NCBI GenBank assembly: GCA_002483145.1
Contig: DLHJ01000016.1
Location: forward strand, 248,001 to 312,000
Source of the DNA: Cellvibrio sp. UBA7671
Lineage (GTDB): Bacteria > Pseudomonadota > Gammaproteobacteria > Pseudomonadales > Cellvibrionaceae
Direction: 5' to 3'
DNA: 64,000 nucleotides
The translations under genes and the position numbers were made by a program. The stretch's first letter is position 1. Each line of letters opens with the position of its first letter. Positions 36,018 through 54,650 of this stretch are shown here, in pieces. A model generated the notes under the pieces. The model did no database searches. It was not told the origin of the DNA and saw nothing but the letters and a program-made list of their open reading frames with translations.

Positions 36018-36088
36018 GTTCGACTTTTGGTAATTAATAGTTCGATTTTTCATTGTGTATAGAATCACAAAAATGTGGGTGTTAAATT
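36018..36088 (+). promoter_or_regulatory. Promoter A: tandem AraC-type repeats and extended -10 (TonB receptor 1)
   Basis: Direct repeats GTTCGACTTTT (36018) and GTTCGATTTTT (36040) are 22 bp apart. The extended -10 TGTTAAATT starts at 36080, 40 bp after the second repeat. From the second repeat through ATTCGGA the region aligns without gaps with promoter B at 48.4 kb. The ATG lies 190 bp downstream, giving a long leader. Confidence 0.7.
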
Positions 36089-36277
36089 CGGACGCTACTC
36101 CGTTTTATGTTTTAAGTAGTAAACGCTTTTTTCGCTTTTTAGCTTTGGCAAAAAATGTAAAAAACGTATGTTTTGCAGTCAAGAAATAAATGGAGTGTTC
36201 AATTAGATGCGTATAGCAATCTCCACCTATACGTTTCCGTGGGTTTAATACGAGAGAAAACAACTAAGGGGTTGGAT

Positions 36278-39200
36278 ATGTTTACAAGTAAAAACAACAT
36301 GACAGAAATGTCGGGCAAACGATTCAAAAAATCGTTGCTTGCTGTATCAATCGTTGCGCTGAGTGTGCCAACGTTTGCGCAAGACAACAAACCTGCTGAT
36401 GAAAATCTGGAAGAGGTTGTTGTTACGGGTATGCGCAGCAGTCTTGATACTGCACAAGAATTAAAACGTAATGCGGATACTGTAAAAGATGTAATCACTG
36501 CATCCGATATCGGCGCATTGCCGGATAAATCAGTTACTGAAGCATTGCAACGTGTTCCTGGTGTAACCATCGAGCGTTTTGCTTCTTCTGATGACCCCAA
36601 GCACTATGCGGATGAAGGTACTGGTGTGTTGGTGCGTGGTCTGGATCGTGTACGTTCAGAAATTAACGGCCGCGATGCATTCAGTGCTAACCCATGGGGT
36701 GGTCTGAGCTATGAAGATTTCCCGGCAGAATTATTGGGTGCAGTAGAAGTTGTTAAGAACCAAACTGCGGACCTAATCTCTGGTGGTATCGCAGGTACCG
36801 TTAACCTGATTACCCGTAAACCATTTGATTCGGATGAGCGTTTGCTGTCTTTCAATGCAAAAGCTAACTACGGCGATTTCCGTGAAGAAGTGACTCCCTC
36901 TTTCTCTGCGCTGTTTGCCGATAGCTGGGAAACCAGTGCGGGTAAATTTGGTTTCTTGCTGGCGGGATCTCAGTCTGAGTATCAATCGCGTGGCGATGGC
37001 GTAGGCTTGGGTAATTTCCAGAGCCGTGGCCCTGTTGATACTTTCTCCTATGACGTATGGGGAACTCCTGCTCCCGGTGTTGTAAGTGGCGGTTATTCTC
37101 ACCCATGTATGCCTGAAGCGACTGACTGGCGTGCTTGTACTCCCGCGCAGCTGGCTGATGGAGCGAAAAAATATACTGAAGACGATGCAGCAGCTTATGT
37201 GCCGAAGTATGAAGGTACCGCCATTACTGGTCAGCCAGATGGTGTGACTTATTACACGCCGTCACAGATCCATATGAGCACCGCTGAAAACGACCGCGAG
37301 CGCACCGGTTTTACCACCTCGCTGCAGTGGGCGAACGCCGATGAAACCGTTACGGCAACCTTGGAGCACATCAACTCTAAAGCGTCTCTGGAATGGCAAG
37401 AGCGTCGAGTGGGTCATGCGGCTCAGGGCTTTAAAGGTTTTATGGCCGGATCTCACGATTGGCTGGATCAATCTGCTGAAGGTCGCCCGCGCACCTTTGA
37501 TGAAAGAGGGCATTTAACATCGGGTGTTGGTGTAGGTATTAGCGGTGATGTACCACTGTTATACATCACGCGTTGGAATTACAACGAAAATACGGTTGAA
37601 GATACATCGTTCAATTTGGCGTTGACACCAAATGATCGCTTGACCGTTGAGCTTGATTACCAACATATCGATTCTGAAAAGTTGGTACATAACTACAGCA
37701 TGTCTGGTCAAACTCGCGGTGGTTCTGCTGCTGTTGGTAAGTTATTGCCGTATTACCTGGATTTGCGTGGCGATGTCCCCAGTATTGAGTTCTTGAGTGA
37801 TACCGATTTTACTGGCTGGATTGATCAAGCCGCATTCCAACCCGAGGTATTTATCGGTTCAGGTATGCAGCAAGAAGAGCTCAACAACGCTAAAGCAGAT
37901 GCCGTTAAAATTGATGTGGAGTACGCGCTGGATGGCATCATGACAGCTGTTAAGAGTGGTGTTTATTACACGGATAAAACCCTCACTGTGCGTGACACCG
38001 AATATGCCGGTTGGTCTCCAATTTCTACCCCTTGGGTCAATGAGCAGCGCGTTGCATCTGCTGCTGTGAATCGCCCTGAGCTTTATGACCGTGTTGACTT
38101 TTCCGATTACTACAACGGCAAAGTTCTGAACGGTGGAGTGGAAAGCTTCCTGTTCCCAAGCCTCAACCTGGTGAAGAATTATCCTCAATCACTGCGCGAT
38201 GGCTGTGCAGATGGTTGGTCTACCGTAGGTGATTCTGCGGGTAACGCAGCCGATGGCAGTGGCGGTTGTGCAGTTCCTTATGAAGATATGGAAGGCCGCA
38301 ATAGTCATTTCGCGGATCACGATGTGAGTGAGTCTAACGAAAAACGCACAGAGTTCTATGTGCGTGGTGACTTTGAATTCGCAGATCTGTCAACACCGAT
38401 CAAAGGTAATCTCGGCCTGCGTTATGTCAATTATCAGTTGGAATCTACCGGCTTTACAGTGTTGCCAGCAACCACCAGCCGTGGTGGTAATCAAACAGCT
38501 GCGTTCCTGGAAGCTGAATACAAGGCCATTTATGATCTTGCCAGCGGTGAATCCCTCCAAACTACAGTTGAAGGTACTGATTACGACACAGTGTTGCCGA
38601 GCTTGAACCTGACCTTTGGCGTTGCTGAGGATGTGGTAGTTCGTTTTGGTGCATCGCAAGGGCTTTACTATCCTAGCTTGACTGATACCCGCAACCGTAT
38701 GATTGTCGGTCTGGAGGTTGATCCAACCCTTCAGGATGAGTCCAAGCCACAAAGTGAGACCACCAACCCGGTTATTGGTATCGACAGTGTTTCCCTGAAT
38801 GCCGAAGCCAGCAACCCTTTCCTGAAGCCTGAAGAGTCGGTCAATTTTGACTTGACTACAGAATGGTACTTTGCGAAAGCGGGTTCAGTGACTGTGGGTC
38901 TATTCCACAAAGAGCTGGACAATATTATCCGTAACAGAGGGTTTGACCTGGAGATCGAGCACGAAGGGACAATGCATACTCTCGCTGCCTACGGTCCTGC
39001 CAACACTGGCTCAGGTACCATCCGCGGTGCAGAATTCTCCTACTCACAGTTCTACGATATGTTGCCCGGTGCTTGGAGTGGTTTAGGTCTGCAATTGAAC
39101 TATACCTATATTGACCAGAATGGTTTGGAAGATCCAAATGGTGCAGTAGGGCCAAGTACTCGTTTCAACTCAGCCGGTCAGCCGATTGTGGATGAGCGCA

Positions 39201-39565
39201 ATACTTTCCGTGTATTCAGCGGTCTGCCACTGCAAGGTTACTCCGACGAAAACCTGAACGTTGTTGGTATGTATGAATACAACGATATCTCGTTCCGTCT
39301 GGCTTACACCTGGCGCTCTGAGTACTTGCTGACCTTGCGTGAATCTGAAGACTTTGCTCCAGTTTATGCAAAAGCGGCAGGCATGATGGATGCGAGCTTG
39401 TATTACACCATTAACGATAACTGGAAAGTGGGTGTCGAGGGCAGCAACTTGCTCAATACCGAAACCAAAACTGTTTATCAAATGAATCAGGAAGGCATGA
39501 AAACTGACGCGTTGAACTTTACTACCGACCGTCGCTATGCACTGAGTGTTCGCGCAACCTTCTAA
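36278..39565 (+). CDS. TonB-dependent receptor 1 (Xanthomonas/Caulobacter type)
   Basis: A 1095-residue receptor of the large TonB-Xanth-Caul subgroup: signal peptide ending at VPTFAQ, TonB-box-like EEVVVTG, then plug motifs DIGALPDKSVTEALQRVPGV and GGIAGTVNLITRKPF, a barrel, and the C-terminal RRYALSVRATF. ATG 36278 (MFTSKNN) follows AAGGG; upstream frame from 36173 is rejected. It is a close paralogue of the receptor at 48.5 kb, sharing promoter layout, plug and C-terminus. With chitinases, a NagX homologue and halogenase-like genes around it, chitooligosaccharide uptake is the likely role. It is monocistronic. Confidence 0.93.
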   Translation: MFTSKNNMTEMSGKRFKKSLLAVSIVALSVPTFAQDNKPADENLEEVVVTGMRSSLDTAQELKRNADTVKDVITASDIGALPDKSVTEALQRVPGVTIERFASSDDPKHYADEGTGVLVRGLDRVRSEINGRDAFSANPWGGLSYEDFPAELLGAVEVVKNQTADLISGGIAGTVNLITRKPFDSDERLLSFNAKANYGDFREEVTPSFSALFADSWETSAGKFGFLLAGSQSEYQSRGDGVGLGNFQSRGPVDTFSYDVWGTPAPGVVSGGYSHPCMPEATDWRACTPAQLADGAKKYTEDDAAAYVPKYEGTAITGQPDGVTYYTPSQIHMSTAENDRERTGFTTSLQWANADETVTATLEHINSKASLEWQERRVGHAAQGFKGFMAGSHDWLDQSAEGRPRTFDERGHLTSGVGVGISGDVPLLYITRWNYNENTVEDTSFNLALTPNDRLTVELDYQHIDSEKLVHNYSMSGQTRGGSAAVGKLLPYYLDLRGDVPSIEFLSDTDFTGWIDQAAFQPEVFIGSGMQQEELNNAKADAVKIDVEYALDGIMTAVKSGVYYTDKTLTVRDTEYAGWSPISTPWVNEQRVASAAVNRPELYDRVDFSDYYNGKVLNGGVESFLFPSLNLVKNYPQSLRDGCADGWSTVGDSAGNAADGSGGCAVPYEDMEGRNSHFADHDVSESNEKRTEFYVRGDFEFADLSTPIKGNLGLRYVNYQLESTGFTVLPATTSRGGNQTAAFLEAEYKAIYDLASGESLQTTVEGTDYDTVLPSLNLTFGVAEDVVVRFGASQGLYYPSLTDTRNRMIVGLEVDPTLQDESKPQSETTNPVIGIDSVSLNAEASNPFLKPEESVNFDLTTEWYFAKAGSVTVGLFHKELDNIIRNRGFDLEIEHEGTMHTLAAYGPANTGSGTIRGAEFSYSQFYDMLPGAWSGLGLQLNYTYIDQNGLEDPNGAVGPSTRFNSAGQPIVDERNTFRVFSGLPLQGYSDENLNVVGMYEYNDISFRLAYTWRSEYLLTLRESEDFAPVYAKAAGMMDASLYYTINDNWKVGVEGSNLLNTETKTVYQMNQEGMKTDALNFTTDRRYALSVRATF

Positions 39566-39610
39566 ACTGCTACTGTCTATTAGAAAGAGCTATTTAGATG
39601 TTGTATAGAA

Positions 39611-39643
39611 AAGCGCGCAGCAATTTTACTGCGCGCTTTTTTT
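39611..39643 (+). terminator. Terminator after TonB receptor 1
   Basis: A 10 bp stem (AAGCGCGCAG / CTGCGCGCTT) with an 8 nt loop is followed by five further T. It separates receptor 1 from the halogenase-JmjC genes. Confidence 0.92.
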
Positions 39644-39691
39644 ATGGTTGCTAATATGGTTATTTAAAACCTCATTGAAAAGATACTTGCG

Positions 39692-41203
39692 ATGCAAAAA
39701 AACAACCTTAATTCGATCTGTATTGTTGGCGGTGGTACTGCAGGTTGGATGGCAGCAAGTTTACTTTCCTCTGCACTGCAAGGTAGCCAAATAAAAATCA
39801 CGGTAATTGAATCGCCGGATATTGCTACCATTGGTGTGGGCGAATCAACAGTGCCCTCTATTATGGATTTTTTGCGAACATGCCAAATCAACCTTAAAGA
39901 GTTTGCTGAAGCAACTTCGGCAACATTCAAGTTAGGCATACGCTTTGATGACTGGCTAGAGCCAGGAGCGCAATTTTTTCATCCTTTTGGTCGTGTCGGA
40001 CAGGATGTTAATGGTTTTGAGTTTTATCAGCTGTGGTTAAAAAATGTCATTGACGGTAAAGCTACTCGTTGGCTTGACCATTCTCCTTGCGCAATCATGG
40101 CCGAGAATCAGCGCTTCATGCTTCGCCCGCCCCCGCAACAGAACTGGGTTTTGAACAGTTACAGCCATGCTTTGCATCTGGATGCAATATTAGCTGCGCG
40201 CTATTTGCGTGAGCTTTCCCAAAAGCGCGGGATAGAGAGAATAGAGGCTACCGTGGATAAAGTTGTGGTTGATGAGCGACAATTTATCCGCTCTCTTGAA
40301 TTGAACAGTGGCACAACTGTTACGAGTGATTTTTTTATTGATTGTACTGGCTTCAAGGGGCTGCTGATTGAAGGTGCCCTGAACATTGGGTATGAAGATT
40401 GGACGCATTATTTGCCTTGTAACCGCGCTGTTGCAGTGCAGACAGAAAATACTAGTGGCTTGCATCCTTTTACTGTTGCTACTGCGCGTGAGGCGGGGTG
40501 GACCTGGAAAATTCCATTGCAACATCGCACGGGTAATGGCTATGTGTTTTCAAGCCAATACTGCACTGACGAACAAGCGACTGATACCTTGCTTAAGGCG
40601 GTCAATGGAAAATTGCTCAATGAACCGCGAATCATTCCTTTTACGACCGGACGACGTAAAAAAATATGGCACAACAATTGTTTGGCCTTGGGGCTTGCGT
40701 CCGGGTTCCTTGAGCCATTGGAATCCACTGCGATTCATCTGGTGCATAAAACCCTGGTTCATTTTGTCCGTCACTTTCCTGATCAGGATTTTGAATCCCA
40801 TACAGAACAAGCATTTAATCAAAAAATAAATATTGATTATCAAGAAATTCGCGATTTTATTATTTTGCATTATTGCATCAGCGGCCGCGATGATACGGAG
40901 TTCTGGCGTTGGTGTAAGACTATGCCGGTGCCTGATTCCTTGCGTGAAAAAATCTGTTTATTTCGTGAACGTGGTCAGATAGAGCACATTCCCGGGCAGT
41001 TTTTCACCATTGATAGCTGGTGTTCGATTCTTGAAGGTATGAAAGTGCGCCCGAAAAAATACCACCCGTTAGTGGATGCATTTGATGAGCAGTATATGGT
41101 GACATTGATGCAAGAGAGTGCACATAATGTCCGGGATACCGTCATGAAAATGCCGTCCCACAGCGATTATATCCAACAGTATTGCGCTGTTAAAAAATCA
41201 TGA
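39692..41203 (+). CDS. Tryptophan-halogenase-family flavoprotein 3
   Basis: A 503-residue protein with complete halogenase landmarks: VGGGTAGWM, GVGESTVP, Lys80 in ATFKLGIRF, WTWKIP and GFLEPLEST. It starts 48 bp after a strong terminator and ends overlapping the JmjC-like gene by 4 bp (ATGA), so the two are coupled. The ribosome site is weak. Substrate unknown; the arrangement receptor-halogenase-JmjC-halogenase recurs in glycan-uptake loci of other Proteobacteria. Confidence 0.92.
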   Translation: MQKNNLNSICIVGGGTAGWMAASLLSSALQGSQIKITVIESPDIATIGVGESTVPSIMDFLRTCQINLKEFAEATSATFKLGIRFDDWLEPGAQFFHPFGRVGQDVNGFEFYQLWLKNVIDGKATRWLDHSPCAIMAENQRFMLRPPPQQNWVLNSYSHALHLDAILAARYLRELSQKRGIERIEATVDKVVVDERQFIRSLELNSGTTVTSDFFIDCTGFKGLLIEGALNIGYEDWTHYLPCNRAVAVQTENTSGLHPFTVATAREAGWTWKIPLQHRTGNGYVFSSQYCTDEQATDTLLKAVNGKLLNEPRIIPFTTGRRKKIWHNNCLALGLASGFLEPLESTAIHLVHKTLVHFVRHFPDQDFESHTEQAFNQKINIDYQEIRDFIILHYCISGRDDTEFWRWCKTMPVPDSLREKICLFRERGQIEHIPGQFFTIDSWCSILEGMKVRPKKYHPLVDAFDEQYMVTLMQESAHNVRDTVMKMPSHSDYIQQYCAVKKS

Positions 41204-42216
41204 ACACCTATAAGCCTATTGCGGAATACCACAATCTTTCTGCGCAGCAATTTTTTGACGAGATTGCGCCCGCGCAGCAACCCATCGTGATCCGCAATTT
41301 TTCGGGACACTGGCCGTTGGTGGCGGCTGCGAAAAAATCGCCGCAGGATTTTGCTTCATACCTATTGCGCTTTTATACCGGTCAAAAGGCCAGAATTTTT
41401 GTTGCCCCTCCCGCAGCCAATAAACGTTTTTTTTATAACGACGATCTGACCGATGTGAATTACATCAGCGGGGAGGAGCGGGTAGATTTATTTTTAGGTC
41501 GCTTGCTGGAGCTAATGGATAGAGAAATCTACCCGGCTATTTCCATGCAAAATTCTTCTCCAAGTGAAATATTGCCAGGTTTAAGTGATGAAAATAGTTC
41601 TGTTTTTTTTCCCGCTACAGAACAGCATCTATGGGTTGGTAATGAGGGCATTGTCAGTGCTCATTACGATGGTGCAGATAATATAGCCTGCGTTGTTGCC
41701 GGGAAGAGGCGTTTTACATTATTTCCCCCGGATCAAACCGGCAATTTATACCCCGGGCCACTCAATTTCACACCAGCGGGTGCACCCGTTAGTTTGGTCG
41801 ATTTATATGCGCCGGATTTTGAACGTTATCCATTATTCAAAACGGCATTGGCTAATGCCTACTCCGTAGAACTTGAACCGGGTGATGCGATTTTTATTCC
41901 TATGCTCTGGTGGCATCATGTTGAGTCTCTGGCAAAAGTGAATGCATTGATTAACTATTGGTGGAATGGATCTGCAGTCAAAGGTGCGACATCGCCTAGC
42001 CCTATCGACAGTTTAAATATTGCATTGCTGGCCATGCGCGATTTAACGCCGAATCAGCGCAATGCATGGCGTTATATGTTTGATCATTATTTATTTAAAC
42101 AGGGCATTGATCCTGCATCCTATATTCCTGAACATCAGCAGCATCTGTTAGGAAAGCTATCGTTAGATTATGTACGAGCCATCAAAGATTATTTTATTGA
42201 AAAGTTAAAAAAATAG
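41200..42216 (+). CDS. JmjC/cupin-like Fe(II)-2-oxoglutarate oxygenase candidate
   Basis: A 338-residue cytoplasmic protein of the cupin-8/JmjC type. The HxD of the iron site is visible as SAHYDGADN (His155, Asp157) and the distal histidine as WWHHVES (His239/240). PGDAIFIPMLWWHH is the typical second strand, and the N-terminal PIVIRNFSGHWPL is the usual family opening. Relatives hydroxylate proteins or small molecules. It overlaps flavoprotein 3 by 4 bp and precedes flavoprotein 4 by 49 bp, so an oxygenase-flavoenzyme pathway is suggested. The substrate is unknown. Confidence 0.88.
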   Translation: MNTYKPIAEYHNLSAQQFFDEIAPAQQPIVIRNFSGHWPLVAAAKKSPQDFASYLLRFYTGQKARIFVAPPAANKRFFYNDDLTDVNYISGEERVDLFLGRLLELMDREIYPAISMQNSSPSEILPGLSDENSSVFFPATEQHLWVGNEGIVSAHYDGADNIACVVAGKRRFTLFPPDQTGNLYPGPLNFTPAGAPVSLVDLYAPDFERYPLFKTALANAYSVELEPGDAIFIPMLWWHHVESLAKVNALINYWWNGSAVKGATSPSPIDSLNIALLAMRDLTPNQRNAWRYMFDHYLFKQGIDPASYIPEHQQHLLGKLSLDYVRAIKDYFIEKLKK

Positions 42217-42265
42217 TGATTGCAAAAAAATACCAACGCCAAGCATCCAAAGTGAATTTATCTAT

Positions 42266-43771
42266 ATGACAAGCGCAGCAAAAAAACCAAAAAAAGTTCT
42301 CATTGTTGGCGGTGGTACTGCTGGCTGGATGGCTGCCAATTTATTAGCAGTACACTGGCGTGATGTTGATATCAGCTTGCTTGAATCTAGTGATATTGGA
42401 ATCATCGGTGTGGGAGAAGGATCGACACCACATTTAAAATTCTTTTTTGATGAAGTGGGTATTGACGAATCAGACTGGATGCCGCGCTGCAACGCAACCT
42501 ATAAAAATGGAATTACCTTTACTAACTGGTCGTTGATCCCTGGTTTTGAATCCTATTTTCATCCCTTTCCTGCGCAGACGGATGATATTTTTACTGTCCC
42601 GGCATTTTTTAACAATATTAACGCTCGCATGCAGGGCTACAACACAAATGCACATCCAGACCCTTATTTTTTAGAAACCTATATTACCCAACAAAATCTT
42701 GGGCCTATACCCACGGAAAATTTTCCATTTGGCGTTGCCTACGGATACCACTTCGATTCAGGTTTATTGGGGCAATATCTGGCTGAAAAAGCGATTAGTA
42801 GAGGCGTTAATCGCATTTTTGGCACAGTGACAGAAGTGCTCATGCATCCAACTGGTGAGTTGGCTTCGGTGCGCTTGGATGATGATAGCCTTTTATCAGC
42901 AGATTTCTTTATTGATTGCTCGGGCTTCAAGTCTTTGCTACTACAGGGGGCTTTAAAGGCCACCTATATCAGTTTTAAAGAAAACTTGTTTAATAATGCG
43001 GCGGTAGTCATGCCGACGCCAATCTCTGAAATCATTCCGCCCGAAACCAAATCAACTGCTCTTTCAAATGGCTGGGCATGGAAAATTCCATTAACCAATC
43101 GCTATGGTAATGGTTACGTATATAGCGCGGATTATATTACGCCTGAACAAGCTGAAACAGAATTAAGGCAGCATTTAGGGTTGCTCGATAATGATGTTGC
43201 AGCCAGACATCTGCAGATGAAAGTGGGTCGTGTCGAAAAACACTGGGAAAAAAATTGCGTAGCGATAGGTTTATCACAGGGTTTTATTGAGCCATTAGAG
43301 GCGACTGCGCTTGCCTTATCTTTCAACACTATATCGGGGTTTATAAAGTCTTACGAACAAGGCGGATATACCAATCAATTCGAAGATGCATTTAATAAAG
43401 AAATTAATGCAAGATTTGATGGAGTCAGGGATTACATTGTGTGCCATTACAAGGTTAATCAACGAACAGATTCCGAATATTGGAAGGATAATGCTGCGAA
43501 TACACACTTGTCAGAAACACTAAACCAAATTCTTCACTTTTGGTACAGGGGCGGTGATTTTGCCAAAAACATGTATACGAATAATCTGGTGGGCAGTTAT
43601 CAGCCCAAATCATGGGCGTGTCTGTTGGCGGGTTATGGTGTTTTCCCTCCTTTAAGGTCTGATGAGAAAAGCACCCAATTTAAATCCGGGCAAGATATGA
43701 CGCAATTGGCTGACTTTATTCGCAGGTGTGGATTGAACTTTAAAAAGCATAACGAATTACTTATCCGATAG
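42266..43771 (+). CDS. Tryptophan-halogenase-family flavoprotein 4
   Basis: A 501-residue paralogue with VGGGTAGWM, GVGEGSTP, Lys80 in ATYKNGITF, WAWKIP and GFIEPLEAT. It differs from the others by a longer substrate-side insertion (…PAQTDDIFTVPAFFNNINARM…) and is the most divergent catalytically complete copy, so its substrate may be different. It follows the JmjC-like gene by 49 bp with a weak ribosome site. No terminator lies immediately after it; the next promoter-like element begins 20 bp downstream. Confidence 0.92.
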   Translation: MTSAAKKPKKVLIVGGGTAGWMAANLLAVHWRDVDISLLESSDIGIIGVGEGSTPHLKFFFDEVGIDESDWMPRCNATYKNGITFTNWSLIPGFESYFHPFPAQTDDIFTVPAFFNNINARMQGYNTNAHPDPYFLETYITQQNLGPIPTENFPFGVAYGYHFDSGLLGQYLAEKAISRGVNRIFGTVTEVLMHPTGELASVRLDDDSLLSADFFIDCSGFKSLLLQGALKATYISFKENLFNNAAVVMPTPISEIIPPETKSTALSNGWAWKIPLTNRYGNGYVYSADYITPEQAETELRQHLGLLDNDVAARHLQMKVGRVEKHWEKNCVAIGLSQGFIEPLEATALALSFNTISGFIKSYEQGGYTNQFEDAFNKEINARFDGVRDYIVCHYKVNQRTDSEYWKDNAANTHLSETLNQILHFWYRGGDFAKNMYTNNLVGSYQPKSWACLLAGYGVFPPLRSDEKSTQFKSGQDMTQLADFIRRCGLNFKKHNELLIR

Positions 43772-43791
43772 GGCTTCTTTGTTATAAAAAG

Positions 43792-43871
43792 GTTTGATAT
43801 TCAGCTTCCAGGTTCGACTTTTATCCCCGCCTAAACTATACATTGCCGCTGCTTCAGCCCGATGCTAACGT
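43792..43871 (+). promoter_or_regulatory. Promoter E: tandem AraC-type repeats and extended -10 (small ORF)
   Basis: A degenerate repeat GTTTGATATTC (43792), a perfect GTTCGACTTTT (43812) 20 bp later, then TGCTAACGT at 43863, 51 bp after the second repeat. The 51 bp distance is exactly that of promoter C. It faces a 46-codon ORF starting at 43914. Confidence 0.6.
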
Positions 43872-43913
43872 GACAATACAGTCTATGCACTCGGGTTTCT
43901 TGGTATAAATGTT

Positions 43914-44054
43914 ATGAGTGTCCATTTGAATTCTAACTGTGAATTGGTAAATCCAAAGCGCAATCAGTATCAAAAAGCTAGGTGGTTAAACTCATCTTAC
44001 TTTGTTAATTGTTGTTTGTTTTTGATGTTCCTTGGAATGCTATTAGTTAGCTGA
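43914..44054 (+). CDS. Candidate 46-residue small membrane protein
   Basis: ATG at 43914 to TGA at 44054. The first ~28 residues are polar (MSVHLNSNCELVNPK… with several Lys/Arg) and the last ~17 form one hydrophobic helix (YFVNCCLFLMFLGMLLVS), so a single-pass membrane microprotein is predicted. There is no strong ribosome site. Support comes from its position: a regulon-type promoter (-10 ending 43 bp upstream) and a strong terminator 46 bp after the stop make a self-contained unit of ~250 nt. The alternative is that the unit makes a non-coding small RNA. Confidence 0.45.
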   Translation: MSVHLNSNCELVNPKRNQYQKARWLNSSYFVNCCLFLMFLGMLLVS

Positions 44055-44100
44055 GCAAATCGTAATTACCCCTTTGATTTGCCCTTGTTTCCCGTGACTT

Positions 44101-44127
44101 GCCAGAACCCAGTTCTGGCTTTTTTTT
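44101..44127 (+). terminator. Terminator after the 43.9 kb small ORF
   Basis: An 8 bp perfect stem GCCAGAAC / GTTCTGGC with a 3 nt loop is followed by eight T. It lies 330 bp after flavoprotein 4 and 46 bp after the small ORF, so it defines the 3' end of the short transcript and perhaps of read-through from the halogenase operon. Confidence 0.93.
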
Positions 44128-44293: not shown

Positions 44294-44374
44294 GTGTGAC
44301 TTTATGGCGTTTGGGTGTGAGTTTAGGCCTGTTGTTGTGAGTGTGTTGCGAGCGTTTTTGGTGAGTGTTAGTTT
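44294..44374 (+). promoter_or_regulatory. Promoter C: tandem AraC-type repeats and extended -10 (GH18-CBM5/12-CBM6)
   Basis: GTGTGACTTTA (44294) and GTGTGAGTTTA (44315) are 21 bp apart. TGTTAGTTT starts at 44366, 51 bp after the second. The block GTTGCGA…TTTTTGGTnAGTGyTAG is shared with promoter D. The ATG follows 77 bp later. Confidence 0.6.
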
Positions 44375-44450: not shown

Positions 44451-46100
44451 ATGCGCGCACTTCATCAAACCAATCATGGATCGGGATTCATCCCAACAGC
44501 CATTCGGCAATGGATTTGTGCTGGCCTTGGGTTAGTTGCCCTCACTGGTTTTTCTTCGATTGCCCAAGCGCAAACGAAAGTTGTTGGTTACATTCCGTCG
44601 TACAAAAATATGCCAGCGGTAATTGATCGCACTGATTTGAGCAAACTTACCCATCTCAACTTATCATTTTTAAATCCCAATGCCAGCGGCGCGGTCACCA
44701 GTGGTGGCAATCCGGTGTGTATGGAAGGGGCGAGCGCGAGCGATATTAATTATGTAGTCAATAAAGCCCACCAAGCCGGCGTGAAAGTATTGGTGTCGGT
44801 GGCGGGCGGTGTACTGCCGCCTTGCTCAGGCAATTGGCAAACACTATTGCAGCCGGCGAACCGCGCCACTATCGTCAATAACCTGCTGCAATTCGTGAGC
44901 ACTTTTAATCTCGATGGTTTGGATATCGATATTGAAGGCGTAGTACTTACCAACATTGATAACGCCGGAAATTACACACCATTTATTCAAGCTCTGCGTA
45001 ATGGCTTACCTGCCGGAAAGCTATTAACCTCGGCGACTGCCTCTTATGTCGGTGGAATGGTGCCCACATCATCGCTGCCCTATTTTGATTTTGTAAACAT
45101 TATGTCGTACGACGCGATTGGCCCGGGTTGGGGGCCAGCCGGTGTTGAGCACTCACCTTATTCGATGGCGGTATCCGATATTAATATCTGGAAAGCACGC
45201 GGCCTCACCAAGCAAAAAATGGTGTTAGGTGTTCCATTTTACGGTTACGGATTTAATGGTTACGCGGCCGCTTACGATTTCAATTCCATCGTCAGTCAAT
45301 TTGGTGCGGGTGCTGCGCAAGCAGATGTGATCGGCACTCGCTGCGCCGGTTGCAGTTACATTACCTACAACGGCATTCCCACCATCCGCAGCAAAACCCA
45401 ACTGGCTCTGCAAGAAGGTTCGGGTGTAATGATCTGGGAATTGTCGCAAGATGTTGCCGGTGCAAATAGTTTGCTTGCTGCGATTCACAGTCAAATTGGC
45501 AATGGTGGTGGTTCGAGCTCATCAACGCCAACCAGTTGCCCTGCATGGGTAAGCGGACAAAATTATGCGGTGGGCGATAAAGTGACTTATCAAGGCGGTT
45601 ACTACATCGCTGAATACGCGAACCCGGGTTACATCCCCAATGTGAGCACTTATTTCTGGGAGCCGATTGCCGCATCGGCATGTGGCGGAACATCGTCTTC
45701 AAGTTCATCAACTGCTGCATTCACTCGCTTGATTCAAGCAGAGGCCTATACCGCGATGAGTGGTGTGCAACTTGAGGCTACGACTGACACCGGCGGCGGA
45801 CAAAATGTAGGTTGGATTGATGCAAATGACTGGATGGCACATGCCAATATTAATTTCCCCAGTAGCGGCACTTACAAAGTGGAATACCGTGTAGCGAGTG
45901 TAAGCGGTTCACGTGTATCACTCGATTTAAATGCCGGTGCGATTCAATTGGGGCAAGTGAATATTCCTGCAACTGGAGGCTGGCAAACCTGGGCTACTGT
46001 TTCACATAACGTGTCGATTAATGCGGGCACTTATAGTGTAGGAATTTTTGCACCACAGGGTGGTTGGAATCTTAACTGGATCAGATTTACCAAATTGTAA
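44451..46100 (+). CDS. Secreted chitinase GH18-CBM5/12-CBM6
   Basis: A 549-residue secreted enzyme: signal peptide (~1-40, ending SSIAQA), GH18 barrel (~41-350) with LDGLDIDIEG and catalytic Glu162, CBM5/12 chitin-binding module (~363-411: PAWVSGQNYAVGDKVTYQGG), serine linker, and CBM6 (~424-549). The catalytic domain is a close paralogue of the anchored GH18 at 31.5 kb. This one has binding modules and no anchor, so it is likely to act on insoluble chitin outside the cell. ATG 44451 follows GAGG. It is monocistronic, between promoter C and a strong terminator. Confidence 0.94.
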   Translation: MRALHQTNHGSGFIPTAIRQWICAGLGLVALTGFSSIAQAQTKVVGYIPSYKNMPAVIDRTDLSKLTHLNLSFLNPNASGAVTSGGNPVCMEGASASDINYVVNKAHQAGVKVLVSVAGGVLPPCSGNWQTLLQPANRATIVNNLLQFVSTFNLDGLDIDIEGVVLTNIDNAGNYTPFIQALRNGLPAGKLLTSATASYVGGMVPTSSLPYFDFVNIMSYDAIGPGWGPAGVEHSPYSMAVSDINIWKARGLTKQKMVLGVPFYGYGFNGYAAAYDFNSIVSQFGAGAAQADVIGTRCAGCSYITYNGIPTIRSKTQLALQEGSGVMIWELSQDVAGANSLLAAIHSQIGNGGGSSSSTPTSCPAWVSGQNYAVGDKVTYQGGYYIAEYANPGYIPNVSTYFWEPIAASACGGTSSSSSSTAAFTRLIQAEAYTAMSGVQLEATTDTGGGQNVGWIDANDWMAHANINFPSSGTYKVEYRVASVSGSRVSLDLNAGAIQLGQVNIPATGGWQTWATVSHNVSINAGTYSVGIFAPQGGWNLNWIRFTKL

Positions 46101-46146
46101 TTGCATTACGTCATTACGTTATTTTTTGTTTTTCTCCCCGGACTTT

Positions 46147-48122: not shown

Positions 48123-48383
48123 AGTGGTGCCCTCGGTAAGAAAGACAGTTCACTTAATCGGGTTATAAAAGCAAAAATGACAGATTTTATAGCCTGAGAT
48201 TATCGCTTCAAGCGACTCCGATTCAGCGTGACAAATCCAGCTTAGGGAAGATTAATTGCTGTATCAGTGCGTTATCCCGCATAGAAAACGGTGATATCAG
48301 AAATACCAAGCCAGTCACAAAAACGATAAAAACAACCTATTTAAACTCCCCCCGAAAAATCTTTTTCTTGTACCGATAAACAG

Positions 48384-48478
48384 GTTCGACTTTTCTATTG
48401 ACCCCCAAGTGCGACTTTTAGTAGTTCTGGTTCGAGTTTTTCTACGCCGTAGAACCCCAAAAATGCGAGTGCTAGATT
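48384..48478 (+). promoter_or_regulatory. Promoter B: three AraC-type repeats and extended -10 (TonB receptor 2)
   Basis: GTTCGACTTTT (48384), GTGCGACTTTT (48409) and GTTCGAGTTTT (48430) are spaced 25 and 21 bp. TGCTAGATT starts at 48470, 40 bp after the last repeat, as in promoter A, and the flanks CCAAAAATG and ATTCGGA are shared with A. ATG of receptor 2 lies 57 bp downstream. Confidence 0.72.
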
Positions 48479-48534
48479 CGGAGATGGCTTGATTTGCCGG
48501 CTTTTTAATCACTCGACAAAAATAGGGGTTAGTT

Positions 48535-51500
48535 ATGTTCAACCGTGGCGATACAAACACAAAAAACACGCGCAGGATGTTTAAAAAATCCCTGCTCGCT
48601 GTTTCGATTATGGCGTTCGGCGCTCCAACAATCGCGCAAACAGGAAATGCAGCAACTGAACAAGAACTGGAAGAAGTTGTGGTGCAGGGGATTCGCACCA
48701 GTCTTGAAGATGCGCAAGCGTTAAAGCGCGATGGTGATACGGTAAAAGATGTTATTACTTCATCGGATATTGGTGCGCTGCCGGATAAAAGTGTGACTGA
48801 AGCTTTGCAGCGTGTTCCGGGTGTAACCGTTGGCCGTTTTGCGGCGCCGACTGACCCTAACCATTTTGCAGCTGAAGGGCGTGGTGTTTTGGTGCGCGGG
48901 TTGGATCGTGTGCATAGCCAATTTAATGGGCGCGAATCTTTCAGCGCGGGCAACTGGACATCGGGTTTAAGTTATGAAGATATTCCGCCTGAATTGGTGG
49001 GCACAGTGGAAGTGGTTAAAAACCAAACCGCGGATATTATTTCTGGCGGTATTGCCGGTACGGTGAATTTAATTACGCGCAAACCTTTGGATATGGATGG
49101 GCGCAAAATTTTTCTCTCGGCCAAAACCAGCTACGGTGATTTGGTCGATGATTGGTCGCCGTCCTATTCAGGATTATTCAGCGACCGCTGGGATACCGAT
49201 ATAGGTGAATTTGGATTTTTGATCAGTGCATCAACTTCGGAGTTTACCGCGCGCGGTGATGGTATCAACCTAACCAACTTTTATGAACGCAGTGCAACCC
49301 AGACCGAGTTTCCAACCTTGGGGTCGACCGAGTTGCCCGGTTATGCCGGAAAAAAACTCTACATGCCCACCGGGCCCTGGATGCAAACCGCTGATTCCAA
49401 TCGCGACCGCAATGGATTTGATGCTGCATTGCAATGGCAAAATAGCGACGAAACTATTAAAGCCACCGCTGAATTTATCCGCTCGGATTCCGAAGAAAGT
49501 TGGCGCGAGCGCGTACTCTTTCCAACCACCAGTTCGCAAGGTTTTGATGCGGATCTTACCAATGCGGTATTGGTCGGTACCGACGCAACCTTTGATGACA
49601 AGGGATACTTTACTAGCGGAACTATAAGTTATCCGTGGAATGTTGCTTACCTGGCGTCAACACGTGGTGACCGTACTGAAAGTATTGTTGAAGATGCCAG
49701 TTTTAACGTGTTATTGACACCCGATGACAAATGGAAAATCGAACTGGATTATCAAACGCTTGATACCAGTTACGAGCGCGAAAATAACACCATCAACAAT
49801 CGCTTCGCGATGTCCGATGTGTTCCTCGATTTACGCACCAAAATTCCGACCGTGAAATTTTTAGGCACCAATGCAACAGGGGGTGTACCGGATTGGTGCC
49901 CTGCTGGAACAAATCCCGGCACAACCGATTTGTCTGATCCCGCGGGTGCTTGTGATTATTATCAAGTATCAATTATGGATACCAATGTCGATGCTGAAGG
50001 AACTATGGATTCTTTCACCGCTGATGTTGAATACCAAATTGAAAGTGGTTGGTTGAAATCCATTGCGGGTGGTGCGTATTTTTCTGATATCGACCGCACT
50101 ACGCAAGACGACGAATATATTAACTGGGGCGCAGTCTCCCATACTTGGGGTACAGCGCCGACTGCGGGTATGGCAGGCAATCCAGAATTGTATGAAGGCG
50201 TCACTTTCGGCAATGATTTTATGGATGGTAAAGGTCTTGCGGGCGATAACCGCACTTTCTTATTTCCACGCATGAGCAATACCCAAGAGAAAAATTTATT
50301 AGCTTACGATCAATTTCTTATGGATAAAGGCTTGAACAATGGTGGTTGGCGCAATCGCGGTGCGCGCGTCAGTATTGATGGCAAGCCAACCAATGCCCAA
50401 GGATATTTACCACACGAAACAGTCACCACCGCAATTGATCGCGAAGAAGCTTATGTGCGGTTTGATTTTGTAAATGATGAATTGGCAATGCCGGTTAAAG
50501 CCAATGTGGGTCTGCGCTATGTAAGTTATGGTGTAGAAGCGACAGGAACATCGCGTTTTAATAAGCCGGGTTTAGGTGATGTTGCAGAAGCTTACTATAA
50601 ACAAAACTTTCCTACTTATGCGGCATTTTTTAATGGCGGTGGCTCAACCGTAAATACCGCAGAGCCAGATACTTACACCACGACTTTGCCGAGTCTTAAT
50701 GTGAGTGTTGCTGTGACCGATGACTTTATTACGCGCTTTGCATTATCCAAAGCGATATTTTTTCCATCGCTTTACGATATGCGCAATACCACCAATTACA
50801 ATGCAGCGGTTACATCTACCACCGATCCTGCTAACCCCGCCAACATTATTGATATGAAAGTATCGGCGAACGGTACGGGCGGCAACCCTAATTTGCAGCC
50901 GGAAGAATCCAATCAAATTGATTTAACGGCTGAATGGTATTTCAGCGAGGTGGGTTCTTTAACGTTGAGTTTGTTCCAGAAAGATATCGATAACTTGTTC
51001 CGCGAACGCAATTATCAAACTACCGTAATTAATCCGGATAACGGTACTTCGATGGATATGTTGGTGCGCCGTCAAGTCAATGAGGGTGAGGGCAGCATTA
51101 AAGGTTTCGAAGTTGCCTATCAACAATTTTATGATTTCTTGCCCGGATTCTGGAGCGGATTTGGTACGCAATTTAACTACACCTATGTATCGCAAGATGA
51201 TCTTGAAGATGCGGAAATGGGTACCAGTGTCTCGGTGGGAGGCGACCGCAATGCGTTCCGCAATTTCAACAATTTGCCATTGCCGGGCCTGTCGGAAGAC
51301 ACCTATAACTTCGCATTGATGTATCAATACGAAGGAATCGAAGCGCGCTTTGCGTACAACTGGCGCTCCGAGTATTTGATTACCCGCCGCGATGCCAATT
51401 CATTTGCGCCTATCTTCAGTGAAGATCAGGGGTATCTGGATGCGTCTATCTGGTACACGATCAACGACAATTTCCGCATCGGTATTGAAGGCGGCAACTT

Positions 51501-51615
51501 GTTGGACGAAATGACGCTCACGCGCACCCAGTTCAACCAGGAAGGCGTCACCACTCCGAAAAACTTCTCTTTAACTGATCGACGTTATGCGTTATCGGTG
51601 CGGGCGACGTTTTGA
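48535..51615 (+). CDS. TonB-dependent receptor 2 (Xanthomonas/Caulobacter type)
   Basis: A 1026-residue receptor paralogous to receptor 1: signal peptide ending PTIAQ, EEVVVQG, plug with DIGALPDKSVTEALQRVPGV, and C-terminal RRYALSVRATF. ATG 48535 follows GGGG. It is followed by a REP-like repeat and then a halogenase, a NagX homologue and a GH16 protein, giving a second copy of the receptor-halogenase arrangement. The shared promoter suggests induction with receptor 1; differences in length and extracellular loops suggest different oligosaccharide ranges. Confidence 0.93.
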   Translation: MFNRGDTNTKNTRRMFKKSLLAVSIMAFGAPTIAQTGNAATEQELEEVVVQGIRTSLEDAQALKRDGDTVKDVITSSDIGALPDKSVTEALQRVPGVTVGRFAAPTDPNHFAAEGRGVLVRGLDRVHSQFNGRESFSAGNWTSGLSYEDIPPELVGTVEVVKNQTADIISGGIAGTVNLITRKPLDMDGRKIFLSAKTSYGDLVDDWSPSYSGLFSDRWDTDIGEFGFLISASTSEFTARGDGINLTNFYERSATQTEFPTLGSTELPGYAGKKLYMPTGPWMQTADSNRDRNGFDAALQWQNSDETIKATAEFIRSDSEESWRERVLFPTTSSQGFDADLTNAVLVGTDATFDDKGYFTSGTISYPWNVAYLASTRGDRTESIVEDASFNVLLTPDDKWKIELDYQTLDTSYERENNTINNRFAMSDVFLDLRTKIPTVKFLGTNATGGVPDWCPAGTNPGTTDLSDPAGACDYYQVSIMDTNVDAEGTMDSFTADVEYQIESGWLKSIAGGAYFSDIDRTTQDDEYINWGAVSHTWGTAPTAGMAGNPELYEGVTFGNDFMDGKGLAGDNRTFLFPRMSNTQEKNLLAYDQFLMDKGLNNGGWRNRGARVSIDGKPTNAQGYLPHETVTTAIDREEAYVRFDFVNDELAMPVKANVGLRYVSYGVEATGTSRFNKPGLGDVAEAYYKQNFPTYAAFFNGGGSTVNTAEPDTYTTTLPSLNVSVAVTDDFITRFALSKAIFFPSLYDMRNTTNYNAAVTSTTDPANPANIIDMKVSANGTGGNPNLQPEESNQIDLTAEWYFSEVGSLTLSLFQKDIDNLFRERNYQTTVINPDNGTSMDMLVRRQVNEGEGSIKGFEVAYQQFYDFLPGFWSGFGTQFNYTYVSQDDLEDAEMGTSVSVGGDRNAFRNFNNLPLPGLSEDTYNFALMYQYEGIEARFAYNWRSEYLITRRDANSFAPIFSEDQGYLDASIWYTINDNFRIGIEGGNLLDEMTLTRTQFNQEGVTTPKNFSLTDRRYALSVRATF

Positions 51616-51650
51616 TTTTTGTAAATTAATGTAACTGATTTTTTTCGTTT

Positions 51651-51726
51651 CTCGTCACTCCTGCGAAAGCAGGAGTCCACTGTTCTAATTTTTATGGATA
51701 CCCGCGTTCGCGGGTATGACGAAACG
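51651..51726. repeat. REP-like palindrome pair (copy 2)
   Basis: Two inverted units, CACTCCTGCGAAAGCAGGAGTCC and the palindrome around ATACCCGCGTTCGCGGGTAT, lie between receptor 2 and flavoprotein 5. The CGTCA…TGACG ends face outward, as in bacterial interspersed palindromes. Confidence 0.85.
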
Positions 51727-51787
51727 ATTTTTAGCCTACAAATACTGAATTTTAAATTTACAAAAAATAAAGTGTCCGGAGTGAAAA

Positions 51788-53284
51788 ATGATTAACGATA
51801 TTTTAATTGTCGGCGGTGGCACTGCTGGATGGATGGCCGCCGCAGCGCTATCACACGTCTATAAAGATAAGTGTCGCATTCGTTTGGTAGAGTCCGACCA
51901 GATTGGAACTGTGGGTGTAGGCGAAGCCACTATTCCGGTAATCCAAAAATTTAATCAGATGCTCGGCATCGATGAACATGATTTTATTAAACACACCCAG
52001 GGTACTTTTAAGTTGGGAATCCAGTTTGTGGATTGGGGCAGCCTTGGCAATAGCTATGTCCATCCTTTTGGCGCTTACGGCATGAACATGGGTTATTTAA
52101 GTTTTTATAATTATTGGCTACGCCATGCGGCCAACCAACAGGCGCGTGACCCAGGCGAATTTTCCATTGCAATCCAGGCCGCTTTGCGCGGGCGTTTTAT
52201 GCCGCCCGCAAAGATTCCCAATTCACCCCTCTCGCAAATTTCTTACGCGTACCATTTTGATGCGGGACTCTATGCACAATATTTGCGCCGCTTTGCCGAG
52301 GCGCGCGGTGTTGAACGCATAGAAGGTGAAATTACCAAAGTGGCATTGCATGCCGATGATGGATTTGTCGATAAAGTCATTTTAAAAACCGGTGAAAGTT
52401 TAGGCGCGCAATTATTTGTTGATTGTACTGGTTTTCGCGGTTTGTTGATCGAACAGGCGATGAACACCGGCTATGACGATTGGTCGCATTGGCTGCCCTG
52501 CGATACTGCCGTAGCGGTGCCAACGCAGAACGTTTCCGATCCATTACCCTATACGCGCTCGACTGCACATACTGCTGGCTGGCAGTGGCGTATTCCACTG
52601 CAACACCGAACCGGAAATGGCCATGTATTTTGCAGTAAATATATGAGTGATGACCAAGCTAAGAAAATACTCCTGGAAAGTGTTGAAGGCAATGTGTTGG
52701 CTGAGCCGCGTTTTATCCGTTTCAAAACCGGTATGCGCCGTAAATTCTGGAATAAAAATTGTGTGTCTATGGGCTTGGCGAGTGGTTTCCTTGAACCATT
52801 GGAGTCAACCAGTATTCATTTAATTCAATCTAGCATTTCCAAATTAGTTGCGTTATTGCCTGCGGCAGATTTTAACCAAACCATTATCGATAAATACAAT
52901 GAATTGCTGACCGCAGAATTCACCTATGTGCGTGATTTTATAATTTTGCATTACAAGGCAAGCCAGCGCACAGATTCTGAATTTTGGAATTACTGCCGCC
53001 AGATGCAAGTGCCGGAGACATTGCAGAAAAAACTGGATCTGTATGAATCCAGCGGGCGCTTGTTTCGCGACAACAACGAACTTTTCGATGAGGTAAGTTG
53101 GTTTGCAGTGATGCAAGGGCAGGGATTAATTCCAAAAAATTACCATCCGCTTGCAGATCAAATTGAAGAACAGGAATTCCAGCGTTTAATGCATGAAATC
53201 AAATCGGTTATTGATCGCGCTGCTGACGCTATGCCAACGCATATGGACTATATAAAAAAACATTGTGCGGCCAATTCGCGCTAA
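51788..53284 (+). CDS. Tryptophan-halogenase-family flavoprotein 5
   Basis: A 498-residue paralogue with all landmarks (VGGGTAGWM, GVGEATIP, Lys75 in GTFKLGIQF, WQWRIP, GFLEPLEST). It is closest to flavoprotein 1 in its motifs. A good ribosome site (GGAG) precedes ATG 51788. It follows TonB receptor 2 across a REP-like pair. Confidence 0.93.
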   Translation: MINDILIVGGGTAGWMAAAALSHVYKDKCRIRLVESDQIGTVGVGEATIPVIQKFNQMLGIDEHDFIKHTQGTFKLGIQFVDWGSLGNSYVHPFGAYGMNMGYLSFYNYWLRHAANQQARDPGEFSIAIQAALRGRFMPPAKIPNSPLSQISYAYHFDAGLYAQYLRRFAEARGVERIEGEITKVALHADDGFVDKVILKTGESLGAQLFVDCTGFRGLLIEQAMNTGYDDWSHWLPCDTAVAVPTQNVSDPLPYTRSTAHTAGWQWRIPLQHRTGNGHVFCSKYMSDDQAKKILLESVEGNVLAEPRFIRFKTGMRRKFWNKNCVSMGLASGFLEPLESTSIHLIQSSISKLVALLPAADFNQTIIDKYNELLTAEFTYVRDFIILHYKASQRTDSEFWNYCRQMQVPETLQKKLDLYESSGRLFRDNNELFDEVSWFAVMQGQGLIPKNYHPLADQIEEQEFQRLMHEIKSVIDRAADAMPTHMDYIKKHCAANSR

Positions 53285-53308
53285 AAAACTCTGAACAATA
53301 CACATGTT

Positions 53309-53366
53309 GTCATGCTCGCGAATGCGGGTATCCAGCATATGGATTCCTGCGTTCGCAGGAATGACG
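53309..53366. repeat. REP-like palindrome pair (copy 3)
   Basis: GTCATGCTCGCGAATGCGGGTATCC and GGATTCCTGCGTTCGCAGGAATGACG in opposite orientation, between flavoprotein 5 and the NagX-like gene. The element is open in the reading frame upstream of that gene and creates a spurious 29-residue N-terminal extension. Confidence 0.85.
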
Positions 53367-53398
53367 AAAAATTAATATTCTCAATACAGTGGACTGCT

Positions 53399-54496
53399 AT
53401 GCCTGAGATGACTACCCCTGCGCGCTTTTTGGCGTTGGACGCCCTGCGCGGATTAACGATTGCAATGATGATTTTAGTCAATACCCCCGGCTCATGGGAA
53501 TTTGTGTATCCCCCTTTTATGCATGCCGATTGGCATGGGTGTTCACCTACCGATTTGGTCTTTCCATTTTTTCTATTCGTAGTGGGTTCGGCGATGTATT
53601 TCTCACTACAAAAAGTATCCATGCAATTATCGCCCGCGATTGCGCTCATGGTTGTGCGGCGCTCAGCGATCATTTTTGTTCTCGGCCTGATTTTCAATGG
53701 GGTACTGGGTGGTTGGGAACATTTGCGGATCATGGGCGTATTGCAGCGCATCGCGCTCGCTTATGCGATTGCGGCATTTATTGTGCTCAGCCTAAAGCGC
53801 CACCACGTCTATATTATCGGCGCTTTTTTATTGGTGGGTTATTGGTTGTTGCTGGTTATTGGTGGCAGCGATAATCCCTTTAATTTAACCCAAAATATTG
53901 TCGTCAAATTAGATGTGGCGCTGCTCGGTGCGGAGCACATGTATAACGGAAAAGGTGTGCCTTTTGACCCTGAGGGTTTGCTCAGCACTTTACCTGCGGT
54001 AGTCAATGTGTTGATTGGTTTTGAGTTGACGCGTTTTTTAGTGGCACAACAAGATCGTGTGAAAAGTTTGTTTATATTGCTGATTTTAGGCTTGGCAGGG
54101 ATAACCTTGGGATTGCTCTGGAGCATTGGGCTGCCAATTAATAAATCACTCTGGACCAGTTCATTTGTGATTTATAGCGCCGGCTATTTTTGTATTGCAC
54201 TGGCTCTGTTTGTGTGGCTGGTGGATATCAAACAATTCAAGCGGTTGGCGCAACCATTTATTATTTACGGTTCCAATTCCATTTTTATTTATATGTTGTC
54301 GCCTTTTTGGGTGCACGCTTACTTATTTATCCCTATGCAGGGCGAGAGCGGAAATTTCTATAGCGCATTATTTACCTGGCTTGCGCAGGTGTTTCCGCCC
54401 GCCATGGCGTCGCTTGTATTTGCATTGCTGCATGTGCTGCTGTTCTGGTTTATTAGTTTGCTGTTGTATCGCAACAAAATATTTATCAAGGTGTAA
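53399..54496 (+). CDS. nagX: NagX-like HGSNAT-family membrane acyltransferase
   Basis: A 365-residue inner-membrane protein with ~10 hydrophobic segments. N-terminal RFLALDALRGLTIAMMILVNTPGSW and WHGCSPTDLVFPFFLFVVG are characteristic of the heparan-alpha-glucosaminide N-acetyltransferase-like (DUF1624/DUF5009) family, called NagX in GlcNAc-utilisation clusters of Xanthomonas. It probably acts on GlcNAc or glucosamine at the inner membrane. ATG 53399 is used because the earlier frame translates a REP-like repeat; ATG 53408 is an alternative. Confidence 0.87.
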   Translation: MPEMTTPARFLALDALRGLTIAMMILVNTPGSWEFVYPPFMHADWHGCSPTDLVFPFFLFVVGSAMYFSLQKVSMQLSPAIALMVVRRSAIIFVLGLIFNGVLGGWEHLRIMGVLQRIALAYAIAAFIVLSLKRHHVYIIGAFLLVGYWLLLVIGGSDNPFNLTQNIVVKLDVALLGAEHMYNGKGVPFDPEGLLSTLPAVVNVLIGFELTRFLVAQQDRVKSLFILLILGLAGITLGLLWSIGLPINKSLWTSSFVIYSAGYFCIALALFVWLVDIKQFKRLAQPFIIYGSNSIFIYMLSPFWVHAYLFIPMQGESGNFYSALFTWLAQVFPPAMASLVFALLHVLLFWFISLLLYRNKIFIKV

Positions 54497-54579
54497 TTGT
54501 TAATCCCTAACGAACCGTTATTGATGTTTTATGTGGTGTGACAAGGTTGGCGGAATAGTGCTTCACTTTTTTTTGTGAA

Positions 54580-54650
54580 GTTCGACTTTAGTTAGAGCAG
54601 GTGCGACTTTCACGGTGTGCATTGTTGCGATTTTTGGTCAGTGCTAGCGT
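54580..54650 (+). promoter_or_regulatory. Promoter D: tandem AraC-type repeats and extended -10 (GH16 gene)
   Basis: GTTCGACTTTA (54580) and GTGCGACTTTC (54601) are 21 bp apart, with a third possible site GTTGCGATTTT at 54624. TGCTAGCGT starts at 54642, 41 bp after the second repeat. ATG of the GH16 gene is 78 bp downstream. Confidence 0.68.

Follow-up and report, generated by a model that had tools for sequence, protein, structure and literature searches.

The 64,000-nucleotide stretch of Cellvibrio sp. UBA7671 DNA considered here (hereafter the window; G000:C18:248001-312000, from a genome of 5.04 Mb) holds genes for an AraC-family regulator, TonB receptors, glycoside hydrolases and a small membrane protein, and six promoters in it carry two or three copies of a short DNA word in tandem. 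The regulator gene (30154..31314, plus strand, 386 aa) encodes a multi-helix N-terminal domain and a C-terminal HTH_18 domain, and the first pair of words, GTAATACTTTT/GTTTTAGTTTG (31330..31361, 21 bp apart), lies upstream of a GH18 gene at 31440 and is followed by TGTTACTAA at 31393-31401, 42 bp from the start of the promoter-proximal word, without a clear -35 element. All six promoters read along the plus strand, and the offsets that follow are counted in the same way. Upstream of TonB receptor 1, words at 36018/36040 (22 bp; span 36018..36050) precede the -10-like element TGTTAAATT (36080-36088, offset 40 bp), and upstream of a conserved small membrane-protein open reading frame (ORF), words at 43792/43812 (20 bp; span 43792..43822) precede a -35-like TTGCCG and the -10-like TGCTAACGT (43863-43871, offset 51 bp). 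The promoter of a GH18-CBM6 chitinase has words at 44294/44315 (21 bp; span 44294..44325), a -35-like TTGCGA and the -10-like TGTTAGTTT (44366-44374, offset 51 bp), while that of TonB receptor 2 has three words, at 48384/48409/48430 (25 + 21 bp; span 48384..48440), and the -10-like TGCTAGATT (48470-48478, offset 40 bp). Finally, words at 54580/54601 (21 bp; span 54580..54611), a -35-like TTGTTG and the -10-like TGCTAGCGT (54642-54650, offset 41 bp) lie upstream of a CBM6 protein gene. A preliminary description of this DNA had reported five of these promoters, with their word spacings and extended -10 elements, all of which were found as described; it had overlooked the pair at 31330, and the distal word at 43792 (GTTTGATATTC) is weak, scoring 9.0 of 18.2 bits.

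Across 30 pairs from the window and its relatives, the half-site reads GTnnkAnTTT, with the G, T, A and last two T positions invariant in both words. The extended -10 element TGnTAnnnT, which has a background density of 0.0006 per base, follows 29 of 29 pairs picked without regard to the -10 (32 rows minus three overlapping second pairs of three-word promoters), many of these pairs being orthologous and hence non-independent; it lies 40-42 bp from the proximal word start in 19 pairs and 51-52 bp from it in 10, two registers that differ by one helical turn. Five of the six promoters in the window have a weak -35 element (TTGCnn, TTGTTG or TAGAAn) 17 bp 5' of the TAnnnT hexamer. Taken singly, words are not unusual in the window (52 matches with at most two mismatches, as compared to 39.5 +/- 6.3 in shuffled sequence, with 2/100 shuffles as high), whereas six pairs scoring at least 16, in five promoters, compare with 0 in each of 10 Markov shuffles; as the matrix was derived from the same words, this pair count is partly circular, and independent support comes from relatives and unlinked genes. 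In 1.34 Mb of DNA gathered around matches, with overlaps counted, the spacing of strong words peaks at 20-22, 31 and 39-42 bp in the same orientation and at 40-42 bp in convergent orientation, with few others.

To follow the words beyond the window, a sequence-only profile built from the 30 pairs was run over a panel of 21 genomes (G000-G020), i.e., the genome of origin and 20 others of the same genus. It gave 42 matches at E<=0.01, of which 41 precede TonB receptors, GH18 genes, the CBM6 protein, the small ORF or LPMO10 (lytic polysaccharide monooxygenase) genes; the single match outside this class lies before a Na+/H+ exchanger gene in G014. Fifteen of the 42 were absent from the profile-building set, and 14 of these 15 fall in the expected gene class. 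In the genome of origin, the six matches at E<0.1 are the six window promoters, and five weaker matches (E 0.14-2.9) include two LPMO promoters (on contigs C5 and C3) and, among four examined, two intragenic sites; weak sites may have escaped the scan, since 150 candidates were scored per genome. A site like that at 31330 recurs before relatives of the first GH18 gene in five genomes (G006, G008, G010, G011, G015), and the G008 homologue of the CBM6 protein gene retains tandem words even though it is unlinked. In addition, some TonB receptor and GH18 chitinase genes located on further contigs have word promoters (loci L090, L091 and L100 in G018, and L103 in G015). Among 99 genomes from outside the genus, six had a match at E<=0.05, with about 5 expected by chance. 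The genome-wide scan proposed in the preliminary description, carried out in a comparable form with the profile and with exact patterns, placed profile matches before chitin and cluster genes, unlinked LPMO10-CBM5/12 genes included, and word pairs before functionally coherent genes in several species, as a single regulon would have them. A reading of the words as upstream promoter elements or a structural repeat, with no dedicated regulator, could appeal to their T-richness and their position just 5' of the -35; we consider it the least probable of the explanations weighed here, as positions other than T are invariant as well, the profile matches fall almost entirely before one functional gene class, and the four genus members that lack the regulator have no profile match below E 0.18.

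The unlinked conserved site proved to lie upstream of LPMO10 genes, with the words reversed relative to them, and CBM5/12 was found in all seven of these LPMO10 genes that were scanned. Thirty of 50 LPMO10 matches were given as loci, and all 30 were examined; we class 24 as chitin-type (167-188 bits) and six as cellulose-type (119-131 bits), labels that rest on score and scanned carbohydrate-binding modules (CBMs). Two reversed words occur at 21/24 chitin-type loci, either as a pair scoring at least 16 at 19-21 bp (17/24) or 31 bp apart (4/24), and at 0/6 cellulose-type loci; the three chitin-type loci without words comprise two in G008 and one in G003. In the LPMO promoters, TCGCCA or a similar hexamer adjoins the proximal reversed word and a TAGACT-like -10 lies about 33 bp from the word start. 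An initial idea that the unlinked sites were rRNA-operon promoters arose because no same-strand gene follows them for several kb; it was dropped, as no rRNA motif (40 loci) and no tRNA (six loci) was found and the genes concerned are the opposite-strand LPMO10 genes. A palindrome, GACAGCGCTGTC, was also seen upstream of three lower-scoring, cellulose-type LPMO10 genes (L145, L146 and L148, in G001, G005 and G003, respectively) and represents a different operator.

A third arrangement, a convergent pair 41 bp apart (GTTCGATTTTT at 21591-21581 on the minus strand and GTGTGACTTTT at 21540-21550 on the plus strand), lies between a GH19-CBM6 chitinase gene (19840-21282, minus strand) and a set of genes, from 21741 on the plus strand, that resemble the ong genes for oxidised chitin. 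Nineteen of 26 GH19 matches were examined (eight cluster-type and 11 other), partial or weak ones being left out; seven of the cluster-type GH19-CBM6 genes lie some 10 kb away from the regulator, the eighth on a separate G017 contig. The convergent pair, at 40-41 bp, is present at 7/8 cluster-type genes, that of G014 being different, and at 0/11 other GH19 genes. It could serve GH19, the ong-like genes or both; the first ong-like gene, for a pyridoxal phosphate (PLP) deaminase, is kept beside GH19 in relatives (as neighbour in G014, G006, G007 and G010, and nearby in G016 and G009), and the ong-like genes may thus be served by the pair.

The ong-like set, which sits between the GH19 gene and the AraC-type regulator, consists of plus-strand genes for the PLP deaminase (21741-23090), a GntP permease (23100-24455), a MurR/RpiR regulator (24457-25347), an OngB-like deacetylase (25412-26869), RidA (27045-27434) and GH20 (27443-29866). 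The deaminase matches the D-serine deaminase 3gwq, the OngB-like protein matches PpOngB (9kb1) at 542.5 bits, and counterparts of OngA, OngB, OngC and OngD stand together with the MurR/RpiR gene, as in an ong cluster. In Pseudoalteromonas, the ong pathway processes LPMO-oxidised chitin and the repressor OngR controls part of the ong genes, with lpmo and ongOT-2 placed outside its control (PMC9537276). Compared with the pathway as set out there, the Cellvibrio set shares the association of PLP deaminase, MurR/RpiR, OngB-type deacetylase, RidA and GH20, along with TonB receptors and LPMO; it differs in that a GntP permease replaces the SSS-type OngIT transporter and in having an AraC-type regulator and word sites. 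A Pfam scan that covered 36 of the 42 ORFs of the window found no KdgK or other sugar kinase, and none was sought elsewhere in the genome. OngB-like genes are present in 17 of the 21 genomes, i.e., 16 that have the regulator and G003, which does not; the G003 and G010 copies each contain one internal stop, in G018 the regulator occurs without OngB, both are absent from G012, G013 and G020, and in G008, G011 and G015 OngB lies away from the regulator.

AraC/XylS activators, such as AraC at araI1-I2 and MarA, SoxS and Rob, have a DNA-binding domain with two helix-turn-helix motifs that reads half-sites arranged as direct repeats at intervals of about 21 bp, at the -35 or 5' of it, and their sites can be used in either orientation in a distance-dependent manner. 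The AraC-type binding suggested in the preliminary description fits the features described here: direct repeats at 20-22 bp, further spacings close to whole turns, and a single AraC-type gene within the window, the 30154-31314 regulator, which is also the sole match there to itself. Its C-terminal domain contains two helix-turn-helix motifs (PF12833, E 1.6e-18; PF00165, E 8.2e-8). The likeness to AraC/XylS proteins extends to the two-motif domain, the repeats of about 21 bp near the -35 and the use of orientation, with binding being predicted. In classical AraC the N-terminal half is a cytoplasmic cupin-type domain, whereas that of the Cellvibrio protein is multi-helix and largely hydrophobic, gave no Pfam match, including to the classical cupin-type effector and dimerisation domain, and is mostly lost in some relatives. 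A structure model (pLDDT, the predicted confidence score, 84.8) has about seven long helices, several of them hydrophobic, before the DNA-binding domain, and in the Protein Data Bank (PDB) it comes closest to AraC-type domains, without a match at E<=0.001. Foldseek aligned the membrane half with seven-transmembrane receptors (TM-score about 0.35), a likeness too weak to be used.

Relatives with a conserved DNA-binding domain occur in 17 of the 21 genomes, and in the genomes examined they adjoin cluster genes, except for one G018 copy on a short contig. The DNA-binding domain is better kept than the sensor (e.g., 97/75, 94/71 and 81/47% identity to the window regulator, respectively). In G016, G009, G014 and G002 the regulator has kept only a single membrane helix besides the DNA-binding domain (180-182 aa in open frame), and in G004 and a second G007 copy a somewhat longer remnant persists (246-269 aa); these shortened forms have 81-89% identity in the DNA-binding domain. 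The sensor-shortened regulators hold the same cluster position (L020, L030-L032, L056 and L057).

The regulon could be real and yet be read by another protein, be it an AraC-type paralogue, a hybrid two-component AraC-type regulator or an OngR/NagR-type repressor. The genome of origin contains 13 matches to the regulator at E<=1e-20, 12 beyond itself, OngR controls part of the ong genes in Pseudoalteromonas in the account cited above (PMC9537276), and AraC/XylS-type hybrid two-component regulators control xylanase genes in C. japonicus (PMC10766802). The regulator described here shares with those xylanase regulators an AraC-type DNA-binding end, polysaccharide genes as targets and the genus, and differs from them (PMC10766802) in being a single membrane protein in which Pfam finds neither a kinase nor a receiver domain. 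Against another reader stand the lack of a second match in the window, the position of the relatives beside cluster genes and their DNA-binding-domain identity, 63-98% as compared to 42-50% for the ten paralogues compared. In addition, MurR/RpiR and LacI proteins usually bind palindromes rather than 21-bp direct repeats, which counts against a repressor as reader. We therefore regard a different reader as unlikely, though as the most serious competitor to the 30154-31314 regulator.

With regard to the regulator gene itself, no word scoring at least 11 precedes it at 18 relatives' loci, and autoregulation is thus not indicated. A palindrome, GACAACGTTGTC, which we take to be a NagR box, is upstream of the regulator at 14 of 18 relatives' loci, with TGACAACGTTGTCC at 29912..29925 (plus strand) as the corresponding window copy, which in the window alone is not above chance; similar palindromes are found before 8/11 of the other, non-cluster GH19 genes (GACAnCGnTGTC) and in seven LPMO promoters (TACAACGTTGTCA). 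NagR, a LacI-family protein, governs N-acetylglucosamine genes in gammaproteobacteria (PMC5343134). The likeness to its regulon lies in the NagR-like palindromes at regulator, GH19 and LPMO promoters, for which only the palindrome was scanned here, and the difference is that the Cellvibrio words are not palindromes. The regulator gene is probably controlled by a NagR-type repressor, which would create a two-step switch.

Further plus-strand genes of the window lie behind the word promoters. The GH18 gene behind the 31330 promoter (31440..32744, identified by Pfam) is followed by two tryptophan-halogenase-like genes (32744-35895, also by Pfam), and the group at 36173..43771 comprises TonB receptor 1 (start at 36173 or later) and then halogenase-like, cupin and halogenase-like genes. 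The small ORF (43914..44054, 46 aa with one hydrophobic stretch) has similarly composed ORFs at the equivalent place in relatives, and a terminator block 3' of it, CCCGTGACTTGCCAGA...CTGGCTTTTTT (44091..44125, plus strand), is strongly conserved at eight relatives' loci; a single-helix short peptide ORF with its own word promoter and terminator block was observed at L041, L035, L053-L057 and L037. The GH18-CBM6 chitinase gene (44451..46100) is followed by the group of TonB receptor 2, a halogenase-like and a NagX-like gene (48535..54496), which contains REP-like intergenic repeats (CTCCTGCGAAAGCAGGAG, ACCCGCGTTCGCGGGT; ~51640-51725 and 53304-53330), and by the CBM6 protein gene (54728..56374). 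The genes assigned earlier to the five promoters (two TonB receptors, a GH18 chitinase, a 46-codon ORF with counterparts in relatives) stand, with the exception of the GH16 label of the CBM6 protein, whose N-terminal domain is weakly GH16-like: it has no Pfam GH16 match, its best PDB profile match has E 0.012, and a predicted structure was too poor (pLDDT 47.7) and was not used. Before TonB receptor 3 (~57440-57500) there are no strong words; GTAACCGGTCAC and GAAACCGATTACA occur there and perhaps represent another operator.

Near-identical terminator blocks (CCCCGGACTTTGCGGA...) at 46136 and 56406, behind the GH18-CBM6 and CBM6 protein genes, suggest duplicated gene ends. The six promoters might likewise be copies of one ancestral promoter that moved with duplicated receptors and enzymes, the words being inherited without selection, a notion to which the shared terminator block and the similarity of the two TonB receptor promoters beyond the words lend some weight. 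By contrast, the words are kept at 20-22 bp although the spacers differ, the register shifts by a whole turn, and the LPMO and GH19 promoters use other word orientations, which together make descent without selection very improbable.

We thus propose, with a probability of about 0.72 on the basis of sequence, that the words are AraC-family half-sites most likely read by the 30154-31314 regulator and that they define a regulon for LPMO-assisted chitin use. Two copies of the regulator would occupy two words that lie on the same face of the DNA, about two turns from each other, upstream of sigma-70-type promoters with a weak -35 and an extended -10, and would thereby recruit RNA polymerase; the proximal word takes either of two registers that differ by one turn (40-42 or 51-52 bp from the TG). 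Elsewhere in the genome, the promoters of LPMO10-CBM5/12 genes would use reversed words, and the convergent pair would act between the cluster GH19 gene and the ong-like genes. While the regulon is well supported by sequence, the identity of its reader represents a good inference.

A number of observations weigh against this proposal. Exact patterns showed no overall excess over reversed controls across the panel (40 vs 35 at 21 bp, 9 vs 17 at 22 bp and 22 vs 19 at 20 bp), with at least 35/40, 8/9 and 8/22 of these matches, respectively, lying before cluster, chitinase, receptor or LPMO genes. No word pair precedes the GH18 genes that were examined beyond the cluster (four in the genome of origin, four in G001, six in G006 and three in G007), one G001 gene having a lone word 744 bp 5' of the domain, and in the ong-like set the only window words scoring at least 13 (22041 and 22235) are intragenic. 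In G008, which has the regulator, neither of the two chitin-type LPMO loci carries words, and G019 has the regulator with no clear site. In the DNA read for G017 and G019 the promoter that would follow the regulator gene is missing, and no pair was found there in G014. Co-absence of regulator and targets is informative in one case only, as most of the targets are likewise missing from the four regulator-less genomes (G003, G012, G013 and G020); that case is G003, whose chitin-type LPMO gene has no words. With regard to the missing promoter, the intervals between regulator and next gene without a word promoter are L043 8795-8879 (G019), L044 5336-5344 (G017) and L055 10287-10426 (G014), and the next gene may be transcribed there by read-through from the regulator gene. 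The GH18 result indicates a regulon centred on LPMO, TonB and ong-like functions rather than the whole chitinase set, so that the chitin regulon proposed in the preliminary description is supported by the gene class of the profile matches and is narrower than its name implied.

More tentatively, the protein may be a transmembrane one-component AraC receptor that responds in the envelope to a product of chitin cleavage by LPMOs and, while still in the membrane, directly activates genes for LPMO10 and for import and catabolism of the oxidised sugars; word orientation (forward, reversed or convergent) would then encode promoter class, and some lineages would have shed most of the sensor and kept the DNA-binding domain and sites. 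In C. japonicus grown on fungal necromass, chi18D, chi19A, csn46F and LPMO10A are reported to be up-regulated (PMC11497827), which fits the regulon and is no test of it. Literature searches, mostly outside subscription papers, did not find the motif or an AraC-type chitin regulator of Cellvibrio.

The regulon would represent a new addition to AraC-controlled catabolic regulons, distinguished by the link between LPMO10 and the use of oxidised chitin and by a membrane-borne regulator. How chitin-active LPMOs are co-induced with the oxidised-chitin pathway is little known, and OngR, the repressor known from Pseudoalteromonas, did not act on lpmo (PMC9537276). One DNA word joins chitin-type LPMO10 genes, TonB receptors and the ong-like neighbourhood across the genus, including the model species C. 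japonicus, and points to one candidate regulator gene, and membrane regulators with and without most of their sensor, associated with the same kind of sites, provide a natural series.

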